Positions 4,161 to 36,090 of a stretch of DNA of 36,646 nt are shown piece by piece. The DNA lies in the IMG/VR virus record IMGVR_UViG_3300034101_000340, positions 1 through 36,646 of that record. One strand, 5' to 3'. This stretch comes from a virus. Both the position numbers and the translations under genes were made by a program. The first letter of the stretch is position 1. The number at the start of each line of letters is the position of its first letter. Under the pieces are notes generated by a model. That model made no database searches. It had not been told where the DNA came from and saw only the letters and a program-made list of their open reading frames with translations.

Positions 4161-4340
4161 ATGTTTTCAGTTAACCAAATCGTAGCTGGCAAAAATGCTG
4201 GTGTTTTCGTAATCCTTTCGTTCCGCATCGGCGCAGACGGTGAGCGTTGGGCGAATCTCAAGGAGATTAACCCTGTAACGCAGAAAACTTATCCCGGCGG
4301 TTTGTCGCTGCCAGAAAGCGCATTGCGCGAATACCACTGA
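4161..4340 (+). CDS. Small hypothetical protein
   Basis: The product is 59 residues from ATG 4161, which has a strong GGAGG at 4151-4155; an upstream in-frame TTG is less likely. It looks like a small beta-barrel: a VNQIVAGKNAGVFVILSF strand pair, then WANLKEINP and SLPESALREY. Similar short proteins recur in phage early regions, with no function known to me. The stop codon lies in the loop of a perfect hairpin (ATACCAC 4331-4337, loop TGAG, GTGGTAT 4342-4348), directly upstream of the structured RNA. Translation ending there could influence folding of that RNA. Confidence 0.7.
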   Translation: MFSVNQIVAGKNAGVFVILSFRIGADGERWANLKEINPVTQKTYPGGLSLPESALREYH

Positions 4341-4354
4341 GGTGGTATAGTTTG

Positions 4355-4465
4355 GACATCTATGTATCCGGCGTAGATGTCAAAGCCCTTTAGCTTTGGT
4401 TCTCAATCCTTAAATGGATACGTGCCGGATACACGGAGAGCCAAACCTAGAGGGCTTTTTTATTT
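4355..4465 (+). ncRNA. Structured RNA 1: kissing-loop three-way junction with U-tract
   Basis: All pairings are read directly from the sequence. Hairpin H1 is GACATCTA 4355-4362 with TAGATGTC 4374-4381. Stem P2 is 4384-4393 with 4447-4456 (10 bp, one G-U). After a 1x1 C-C mismatch (4394/4446), stem P2b is 4395-4404 with 4436-4445 (10 bp, one G-U). The junction holds P3 (ATCC 4406-4409 / GGAT 4416-4419) and P4 (CGTG 4421-4424 / CACG 4432-4435). The P4 loop CCGGATA (4425-4431) is complementary to TATCCGG in the H1 loop (4365-4371), extendable to nine bases. P2 runs into TTTTTTATTT at 4456-4465, so it can end transcription. Its sequence differs from the element at 35729 but the architecture is the same. 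The strand is set by the U-tract. I know no Rfam family that I can assign. Confidence 0.75.
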
Positions 4466-4716
4466 AGGTCGTACTGGTCGCGTTAGTAATGAACCCATGT
4501 TCGGGGTTGCTACCAAGAAAACCGAGTGCGTTACATTGATAGGGCGGCGCAGCAGACTTGCTACAGGTACTTGCATAAACAAGGTAGAACGGTTGATGAA
4601 CGGTTGGGCCACGATACGGTCACCTTGGAAGATGAATGTAGCCCCGAGAGGGATTAGCCAGTGTGGGAAAGGTGTTAAAGATCAACCCCTCGCCCTATCC
4701 TATACCTTAAATAAAT
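4466..4716 (+). other. Non-coding or weakly coding stretch after structured RNA 1
   Basis: No convincing gene covers these 250 bases. One frame (4377-4751) is open, but it starts inside hairpin H1, has no ribosome site, and reads as a basic, unpatterned peptide. The DNA has some structure: AACCC 4492-4496 / GGGTT 4504-4508, a GAGA tetraloop on CCC/GGG at 4643-4652, and a 9-bp direct repeat GAACGGTTG at 4587-4595 and 4598-4606. It could be an extension of the RNA, a long leader for the next gene, or decayed coding sequence. Confidence 0.4.
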
Positions 4717-5058
4717 ATGATTGCGAATATGAAACAGATCAATCCCCATGAGGCTATCGATTATATGATCCGGCACTCTGCTGAATACGCACAGGCCAAG
4801 GCTCAGGTTACCTACCTTGAAGAATTCCGTAAAAGCAAAAAGGCAATGTTGTTCTCTAGTGCAATAGGGAACACTATCGCCGATAAGGATAACTATGCTT
4901 ACAGCCATCCAGAGTATCTAGCGGTACTGGACGGGCTTAAGGAGGCCGTAGAGAAGGCAGAAACGCTTAGGTGGATGTTGGTAGCAGCACAGGCCAGAAT
5001 CGATGTCTGGCGCTCACAGGAAGCTAGTAATCGGAATATAGATAGATCAACCCAATAG
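4717..5058 (+). CDS. Hypothetical phage protein (MNPHEAIDYM-type)
   Basis: The protein is 113 residues from ATG 4717; ATG 4729 (MKQINPHEAIDYM) is equally possible, and neither has a clear ribosome site. It is helical and charged, with a coiled-coil-like stretch (YAQAKAQVTYLEEFRKSKKA) and a second long helix (LKEAVEKAETLRWMLVAAQARIDVWR). This pattern is recurrent in phage early regions near replication genes, but I know of no assigned function. The poor start context directly after a long untranslated region suggests that its translation is controlled by RNA structure or depends on upstream events. Confidence 0.8.
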   Translation: MIANMKQINPHEAIDYMIRHSAEYAQAKAQVTYLEEFRKSKKAMLFSSAIGNTIADKDNYAYSHPEYLAVLDGLKEAVEKAETLRWMLVAAQARIDVWRSQEASNRNIDRSTQ

Positions 5059-35265: not shown

Positions 35266-35606
35266 CTCGTAGAGAGAAAATCCTAGAGGTGTTCCATAAA
35301 TATGGCGGGATGACTGCTGATTCCTTATTAACGAACTTTGGCCTATTTGGATGCAGCAGAACCTACGAACTGAGGTCAGAATTACAGACTTTAGTTAATT
35401 ACTCGAAACTTCGGCAGATAGGTAATGTATACTTCCCGATTGGGCAAACAGAGAAAATGGCTAGGGTGATGGACATTGTTCCACCACAGTACAAGCCGAC
35501 ATTTAAAGAATTAAAGACATTTTTGCCTAAAGTTTCACCACGAGGACAAGTCATTGAAAACCGAACCTTCTACACCTGTACCAGCAAACTTGCCGAAAAA
35601 AACTAA
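35262..35606 (+). CDS. Winged-helix-like early protein
   Basis: The protein is 114 residues from ATG 35262 (ATGA overlap). REKILEVFHKYGGMTADSLL, GCSRTYELRSELQTLVNYSK and LRQIGNVYFPIGQTEK follow the order helix-helix-recognition helix-wing of a winged HTH. The C-terminal 45 residues are extended and basic. Likely a DNA-binding early regulator, possibly of phage promoters. Its end overlaps the start of the zinc protein below. Confidence 0.65.
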   Translation: MTRREKILEVFHKYGGMTADSLLTNFGLFGCSRTYELRSELQTLVNYSKLRQIGNVYFPIGQTEKMARVMDIVPPQYKPTFKELKTFLPKVSPRGQVIENRTFYTCTSKLAEKN

Positions 35607-35715
35607 CTACTTTGGTATGCAGGTTTGCCCCGGATGCCGTAGGTCTAGGAGCAATATTCAGTTTCAAAATGCTAATGTTTGCAGGACTTGCCAGCTTAGG
35701 GGAGTTAAAGTATAG
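35554..35715 (+). CDS. Short zinc-knuckle protein (53 aa)
   Basis: An open frame from TTG 35554, with GAGGAC eight bases upstream, ends at TAG 35713-35715. It carries CPGCRRSRSNI and then CRTCQLRGVKV, a C-x2-C...C-x2-C zinc site with a basic surface. The first part (MKTEPSTPVPANLPKKTN) overlaps the winged-helix gene. An ATG at the MQVCPGC position would give 34 residues. It ends 13 bp before structured RNA 2. Confidence 0.6.
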   Translation: MKTEPSTPVPANLPKKTNYFGMQVCPGCRRSRSNIQFQNANVCRTCQLRGVKV

Positions 35716-35728
35716 TAATTGCAGTAGT

Positions 35729-35837
35729 ACACGCTTGGAGGCGTGTTTTGAGTAAGCCTTAGATGGGACTCTGCTGGTACTCACCAGTCCTCCAACACCG
35801 TTATGCGGTGAGAGTCTCACCTAGGGCTTTTTTTATT
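35729..35837 (+). ncRNA. Structured RNA 2: pseudoknotted three-way junction with U-tract, leader of replication operon
   Basis: Pairings read directly: H1 ACACGC 35729-35734 / GCGTGT 35741-35746 with loop TTGGAG. P2 is 35754-35762 / 35821-35829 (9 bp, one G-U). After a 1x1 A-C mismatch (35763/35820), P2b is 35764-35771 / 35812-35819 (8 bp, one G-U). P3 is CTGGT 35774-35778 / ACCAG 35783-35787, and P4 is CACCG 35796-35800 / CGGTG 35806-35810. The H1 loop TTGGAG is complementary to CTCCAA 35790-35795 between P3 and P4. A U-tract at 35828-35834 follows P2. The ribosome site and ATG 35848 of the next gene lie right behind it. The architecture matches structured RNA 1 with different sequence; a regulated terminator is the likely role. 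Confidence 0.78.
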
Positions 35838-35847
35838 GGAAAAAGCT

Positions 35848-36090
35848 ATGGTGAAATTTCAAGGCAGCCAAGGATGTGAGTTTTATATCAACCTTGATGG
35901 ATGCATTGTCATTAAGCAAGACAGTTATGAGTTTGGCAAAGAAGTTAGAGTTGTATTGACTCCAGCAATGGCTTGGGAGTTGCAAGCGTTAATTAACTCA
36001 CACCATGAGGAAATGACGTTTGCATGGGCTGATGGAATGGTGCAGTTTGCATGGGCTGATGGAATGGTGCAGGAGCCTCCAAATGCCTAA
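35848..36090 (+). CDS. Small hypothetical protein with duplicated 9-residue end
   Basis: The product is 80 residues from ATG 35848; a TTG at 35836 lies in the U-tract of the RNA and is less likely. GCEFYINLDGCIVIKQDSYE and VRVVLTPAMAWELQALINSH look like a compact beta-alpha fold. The end carries a perfect duplication FAWADGMVQ x2, encoded by a 27-bp tandem repeat. It is the first gene behind structured RNA 2 and overlaps the replication gene by eight bases. No family recognised. Confidence 0.75.
   Translation: MVKFQGSQGCEFYINLDGCIVIKQDSYEFGKEVRVVLTPAMAWELQALINSHHEEMTFAWADGMVQFAWADGMVQEPPNA
36019..36072 (+). repeat. 27-bp perfect tandem duplication
   Basis: Positions 36019-36045 and 36046-36072 are identical. 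The unit is a multiple of three, so the frame is kept and the protein gains FAWADGMVQ once more. The repeat ends just before the GGAG ribosome site of the gene at 36083. Confidence 0.95.

Follow-up and report, generated by a model that had tools for sequence, protein, structure and literature searches.

A stretch of viral DNA of 36,646 nt (IMG/VR virus record IMGVR_UViG_3300034101_000340, positions 1 to 36,646, hereafter the window) carries two members of a superfamily of phage RNAs of approximately 110 nt, which comprises at least three families, was previously unclassified and is new to Rfam. The two elements, T1 (4355-4462) and T2 (35729-35835), share one pseudoknotted fold. The original prediction had described such a fold for both; it was found in each (minimum free energy z-scores of -5.8 for T1 and -4.3 for T2 against dinucleotide shuffles) and is kept in dozens of homologues. 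As the 95-nt ends of the window are repeated, its 36,551 bp were taken to be a complete genome, either circular or circularly permuted. The portal protein has its nearest relatives in environmental podovirus-like phages and in Methylophilales phage Venkman. The parts of the two elements and their neighboring signals are as follows.

4323-4351, plus strand: putative T1 promoter TTGCGC-17-TATAGT, with the -10 box at 4346-4351, directly 3' of the stop codon of a 63-aa ORF
4355-4381, plus strand: T1 hairpin H1, approximately 10 bp, with the loop TATCCGG at 4365-4371; predicted 5' end of the RNA
4382-4393 with 4447-4458, plus strand: T1 terminator stem P2 (whole stem 4382-4458)
4394 and 4446, plus strand: T1 1x1 mismatch, C.C
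4395-4404 with 4436-4445, plus strand: T1 terminator stem P3
4406-4435, plus strand: T1 three-way junction hairpins, HP2 at 4406-4419 and HP3 at 4421-4435
4425-4431, plus strand: T1 HP3 loop CCGGATA, in loop-loop kissing with the H1 loop
4456-4462, plus strand: T1 U-tract
4462-4712, plus strand: BR, a structured non-coding RNA of approximately 250 nt that starts at the end of the T1 U-tract and has compensatory pairs
35688-35716, plus strand: T2 promoter TTGCCA-17-TATAGT, a consensus match (10/12) whose -10 box overlaps the stop codon of a 53-aa CxxC ORF
35729-35746, plus strand: T2 hairpin H1, 6 bp, with the loop TTGGAG at 35735-35740
35750-35782, plus strand: T2 pseudoknot 2, linker GAGTA (35750-35754) with hairpin-A loop TACTC (35778-35782)
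35754-35762 with 35821-35829, plus strand: T2 terminator stem P2 (whole stem 35754-35829)
35763 and 35820, plus strand: T2 1x1 mismatch, A.C
35764-35771 with 35812-35819, plus strand: T2 terminator stem P3
35774-35810, plus strand: T2 junction, hairpin A at 35774-35787 and hairpin B at 35796-35810
35790-35795, plus strand: T2 pseudoknot 1 strand CTCCAA, partner of the H1 loop
35828-35834, plus strand: T2 U-tract, with the next start codon (ATG) at 35848

The first homologue set consisted of 80 viral contigs from a terminase-anchored search; a descriptor scan found that related phages carried the same two RNAs, with loop sequences that were altered yet still matching. Pattern scans of viral contigs found T1 in 60 stretches and T2 in 106, and structure-aware pair counts were made on 43 T1 and 48 T2 sequences. 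The scan patterns demanded exact matches in parts of P3 and, for T2, of hairpin A, and thus the invariance of these parts is partly a selection effect; the pseudoknots were absent from the patterns. A descriptor defined as a 5' hairpin, an outer stem with at most one mismatch, a U-tract and a loop complementarity of at least 7 nt gave 170 matches in 2.85 Mb of fetched loci and none in the reversed sequences, which speaks to its specificity and not to prevalence because most of these loci had been picked by pattern.

In the homologue alignment of T1, 98.3% of the P2/P3 cells were paired, as were 97.3% of those of the H1-loop pseudoknot, in which all six pairs had changed on both sides (43 sequences). 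The terminator stem P2/P3 of T2 and its pseudoknot 1 were both 100% paired in the homologues, and three of the six pairs of pseudoknot 1 had changed on both sides; pseudoknot 2 was 95.9% paired, with both-sided changes in 4/4 pairs (48 sequences in each case). For either element the covariation score was reached by 0 of 500 shuffles, and the signal was lost when the pseudoknot partners were slid by 1-3 columns. These covarying pseudoknots support the proposal that selection acts on the structure. The predicted complementarity of the H1 loop to the junction region was thus kept in the homologues, with a more exact partner: the HP3 loop, by kissing, in T1 and the strand between the junction hairpins in T2. 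The original prediction was right about pseudoknot 1 and missed the second pseudoknot of T2. Moreover, the single 1x1 mismatch that it had pointed out is real and is kept mostly as A or C against C or A (C.C 27, C.A 15 and C.T 1 in T1; A.C 42, C.C 3, C.A 2 and A.T 1 in T2). Its statement that sequence is conserved only near the base does not hold inside the individual families, where conservation extends to the P3 stem and the junction. Weak matches of T1 to Rfam microRNA families were below threshold and were set aside as palindrome artefacts. Near-identical T2 elements with a C.A mismatch were seen in L186 (8711-8821, minus strand) and L213 (5628-5738, plus strand) beside differing neighbor genes, which suggests that the element has moved horizontally.

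Covariance models were built from T1 (R1) and T2 (R2). Each model picked up the opposite family with modest scores of approximately 20-37 bits; at E < 0.01 in 2.2 Mb of loci, only members or their reverse strands were reported. A third family, T3, was present in 18 stretches. Its linker-to-hairpin-A helix, 7-9 bp long, occurs in 12 sequence versions; by eye, the H1 loop also seems to make a contact that is short and constant (TGGC with GCCA). Since R1 and R2 detect each other and T3 appears to have both pseudoknots, all were treated as one superfamily, of which T1 and T2 look like divergent members, presumably by shared descent. The members examined have a common order of parts, namely, H1, linker, P2, 1x1 mismatch, P3, hairpins or pseudoknot strands, and U-tract. 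The T2 of the phage MW202462 (duplicate MW202544), in which the sequence of P2 and P3 is entirely different, was detected solely by the covariance model, and in the T2 of L094 the hairpin-A stem is inverted through compensating changes. Further divergent elements were found in L147, L262 and L271; all three are missing one junction hairpin, and the folds of L271 and L147 have larger internal loops. A stricter pattern scan for divergent elements gave no matches. No Rfam family matched T1, T2 or T3 in the loci scanned. When 50,697 phage records were searched by blastn with the elements, nothing relevant was returned for the window copies. Both elements were absent from nine further phage records, six of them fetched in part, whose portal or replication genes are related.

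The pseudoknots turn over fast, and their complementarity is almost always kept, even between phages whose flanks are approximately 98% identical. When T1 pairs with a scaffold difference below 3% (mean 0.9%) were compared, the kissing loops differed by 29% per side, and T3 showed 12 distinct pseudoknot strings in 14 contexts. Among context pairs in which both 160-nt flanks were at least 93% identical, the pseudoknots differed in 6 of 16. For example, L273 (CGCGTTAA) and L282 (TCATCCATA) have almost completely different pseudoknots despite flanks that are approximately 98% identical, and each is perfectly matched within its own RNA. Diversifying selection on the pseudoknots is suggested at most, because the numbers are small, the scaffold is strongly constrained and both strands could be transferred together in one short recombination tract.

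In every locus holding both elements, T2 lies upstream of T1 on the same strand at a distance of 3.2-4.9 kb, with the replication genes between them; in the window, the distance is 5.2 kb when counted on the circular genome. The genes 3' of T2 vary and are mostly of replication type, or small proteins followed by replication-type genes; they include DUF1376 and other replication-type proteins, small proteins, HNH and ParB-like proteins. The small protein directly after T2 in the window (35848-36090, MVKFQGSQGCEFYINLDGC...) resembles the first post-T2 genes of many phages and contains a tandem repeat of FAWADGMVQ; this ORF had no PHROGs match, and one related sequence had no Pfam match. In some phages, the genes 5' of T2 encode P22-Cro-like proteins. 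Similarly, the divergent T2 of the annotated phage MW202462 has a Cro-like ORF on one side and, on the other, a replication-protein-like ORF, the ATG of which follows the T2 U-tract by 9 nt. With Cro-like genes upstream and replication genes downstream, the layout of T2 recalls the lambdoid cro-to-replication interval.

Downstream of T1 in the window is BR, in which 25 of the 41 predicted pairs showed compensatory changes (18 sequences) and for which no Rfam match was obtained. The linkage of T1 and BR was checked independently of the T1 sequence by a search anchored on BR itself. A T1-type element was found upstream of BR in 19/19 new BR-anchored loci, with a short gene between the two in one locus and an extra RNA cassette in another; L254 was cut by the contig end. 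In place of BR, an endonuclease-like gene directly follows T1 in L070, in L117 and at the second T1 of L212 (9971-10088); the gene in L212, the only one with Pfam confirmation, was assigned to NUMOD4-HNH.

Both elements have the make-up of an intrinsic terminator, a G+C-rich stem followed by a U-tract, and P2 is followed by a T-run in the copies listed. The T1 promoter is putative, as its -35 box is weak (3/6) and the site was not reported by the consensus scan. The T1 copies listed have -10-like boxes at the equivalent place, which are weaker than those of T2, and in several homologues (e.g., L084, L091, L107, L113, L119, L131 and L137) a terminator-like T-run lies directly 5' of the T1 promoter. 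These T-runs and -10-like boxes suggest that T1 is a transcription unit of its own; all promoters given here are consensus matches. In the case of T2, approximately one promoter site of this quality is expected by chance in a region of that size, and thus the support for the promoter comes from the conservation of the -10 box. Among 74 T2 copies, this box precedes the H1 loop by 9-10 nt in 64; it reads TATAGT in 50/74 and TATGAT in 17/74, and it is also retained where the upstream gene differs. Such a placement would put the start of transcription at the first bases of H1; in the window, promoter and H1 are spaced somewhat further apart. The upstream CxxC ORF of the window (35554-35715), which is zinc-ribbon-like, has a stop codon that overlaps the T2 -10 box. 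The start codon follows the T2 U-tract after 0-19 nt (mode 12-13), which leaves no room for another promoter. T2 is therefore placed as an attenuator would be, between a -10 box (consensus match) and a start codon with no promoter in between.

The reading that we favor, with somewhat less than even confidence, is that T1 and T2 act as attenuators, 5' leader RNAs into which a conditional terminator is built. Transcription would start at the first nucleotides of H1. One or two pseudoknots would hold H1, the linker and the junction together in a compact bundle, which would close into the P2-P3 terminator stem beside the U-tract. Most transcripts would stop at the U-tract and give a stable RNA of approximately 110 nt, while a regulated fraction would read through T2 into the replication operon and through T1 into the BR RNA or, in some phages, the NUMOD4-HNH endonuclease gene. 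Pseudoknot formation, alone or via a phage factor or a sister RNA, would set the termination outcome. We infer these steps, from the production of the RNA to its regulated read-through and the control by the pseudoknots, from sequence and position. The P2-P3 stem has approximately 22 bp against approximately 19 for H1, the kiss and HP3 together in T1, and 17 against approximately 15 in T2. By this length arithmetic, the stacked pseudoknot helices could run alongside the terminator stem, and thus the RNAs look like compact bundles closed by the terminator. Moreover, the T2 operon and BR can be reached only via the terminator or by overriding transcription, which favors a leader terminator with an efficiency that depends on the bundle.

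The following points stand against the leader terminator. A conserved alternative (antiterminator) pairing was not seen in the alignments A1 and A2, so that the switch is conjectural, and a PHROGs scan of 20 proteins of the window turned up no Q/N-like antiterminator. In addition, a compact genome would put a free-standing sRNA gene near a start codon too. A 23-nt inverted repeat in the T1 of the window was considered as an antiterminator and rejected, as its pairing is not kept in the homologous copies examined. The phage Q and AlpA systems likewise consist of a promoter, a short distance, an intrinsic terminator and an operon under read-through control, with a protein that recognizes DNA at the promoter (PMC6606751, PMC9371919). 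Unlike the units described there, the leader here is an elaborately conserved RNA, and none of the 20 proteins mentioned above was identified as an antiterminator.

The main rival, which we consider rather unlikely, is that the elements are free-standing structured sRNAs that act in trans, for example, on a host or phage protein to which they bind, and that a leaky terminator feeds the next gene. Each element has its own -10 box and terminator, the predicted start lies exactly at H1 with most conserved loops tied up, as in a stable protein-binding RNA, and the T-runs 5' of the T1 promoter in some phages fit an independent unit. However, the placement before start codons or BR is kept across very different phages, beyond what autonomy would need.

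The hypervariable yet complementary helices of T1 and T3, and the position of T2 ahead of the replication genes, raise a different possibility, to which only a small probability is given. Molecules from one phage could kiss through their variable segments; the RNA would thereby sense dosage or identity, and a rise in its copy number would alter termination at T2 and T1. The hypervariable self-complementary helix in its invariant scaffold would then be an identity barcode of the phage, with recognition of sister transcripts setting termination before the replication operon; we rate this idea as similarly improbable. Against such a sensor, a back-of-envelope geometry of the stem lengths permits the intramolecular fold, there is no direct sign of dimers, and recombination can also exchange small segments. 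If the barcode were real, phages would have a means of control by copy number or by self/non-self recognition, and cross-talk in co-infection would be avoided. The fast turnover of a helix that remains paired raises the question whether phage early gene expression may be controlled by an RNA that recognizes its own kind. In the case of the leader terminator, our favored reading, control by a leader RNA would operate at a place recalling the lambdoid cro-to-replication interval, where antitermination is usually assigned to proteins. The findings add to environmental phages a superfamily of structured RNAs, which lies ahead of replication genes and of a second, unnamed RNA, and also this second RNA.

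Among the known phage RNAs, the packaging RNA of phi29-type phages also has a three-way junction and complementary loops that change together, as in T1 and T2. However, it belongs to another phage type, and the elements here end in a terminator and are not placed in relation to the terminase gene; the Rfam packaging-RNA models gave no match in the window at E up to 1. The put RNAs of phage HK022 are approximately 70 nt long with two stem-loops and no terminator, and they bind RNA polymerase (PMC9378689). As with putL and putR, there are two related structured RNAs of conserved fold per phage near early promoters, and T1 and T2 could thus act in cis on the polymerase and alter downstream pausing or termination. 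This is quite improbable, since compared with the published description of put, the present RNAs have approximately 110 nt, a three-way junction, one or two pseudoknots and a built-in terminator. It is more doubtful still that they are ordinary terminators with decorated loops; a G+C-rich stem and a U-tract do stand at the base, but a plain terminator needs no covarying pseudoknots, here in three families, no conserved 1x1 mismatch and no placement before start codons, and no terminator family of Rfam was matched.

The least probable reading is that of antisense immunity RNAs of the C4/P4 type. The original prediction had named the C4 antisense RNA (RF01695) of P1/P7-like phages as the closest precedent, and the likeness is that of a phage RNA with a variable loop and a complementary partner. 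In T1 and T2, however, the complement sits inside the same RNA, and no antirepressor or distal target was found. The absence of a visible antirepressor gene had already been noted in the original prediction, and replication genes or BR are found downstream. The model RF01695 did not match at E up to 1 in the whole window or up to 5 in 4340-4740, and loop-complementary sites in the flanking phage DNA outside the elements were at chance level with no excess. The C4 analogy therefore fails, whereas the shared pseudoknotted fold and selection on its structure, also part of the original interpretation, are supported. A pattern scan of 84,980 bacterial and archaeal genomes for the T2 core gave one match, in a rumen Bacteroidaceae genome, which had no terminator context and was judged to be due to chance. 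This near-absence argues against prophage immunity and suggests that T2-bearing phages rarely sit as prophages in sequenced genomes.

In other phages, the position of BR is taken by at least four sequence types (e.g., L087, L085 and L099). At this place, RF02932 (Betaproteobacteria-1 sRNA) was found in L085 (1785-1901, minus strand) and L095 (4654-4771, minus strand); its model did not match T1, T2 or the BR of the window. An extra structured-looking cassette of approximately 170-200 nt is inserted between T1 and BR in L107 (approximately 175-365) and also in L123, L084 and L257; its ends, TTTAGGCAGTTAATAGGTGG and CCACCTATTAATTGCTTAA in L107, are complementary. The AGGAGG in the 3' terminator strand of L117 could act as a Shine-Dalgarno sequence.
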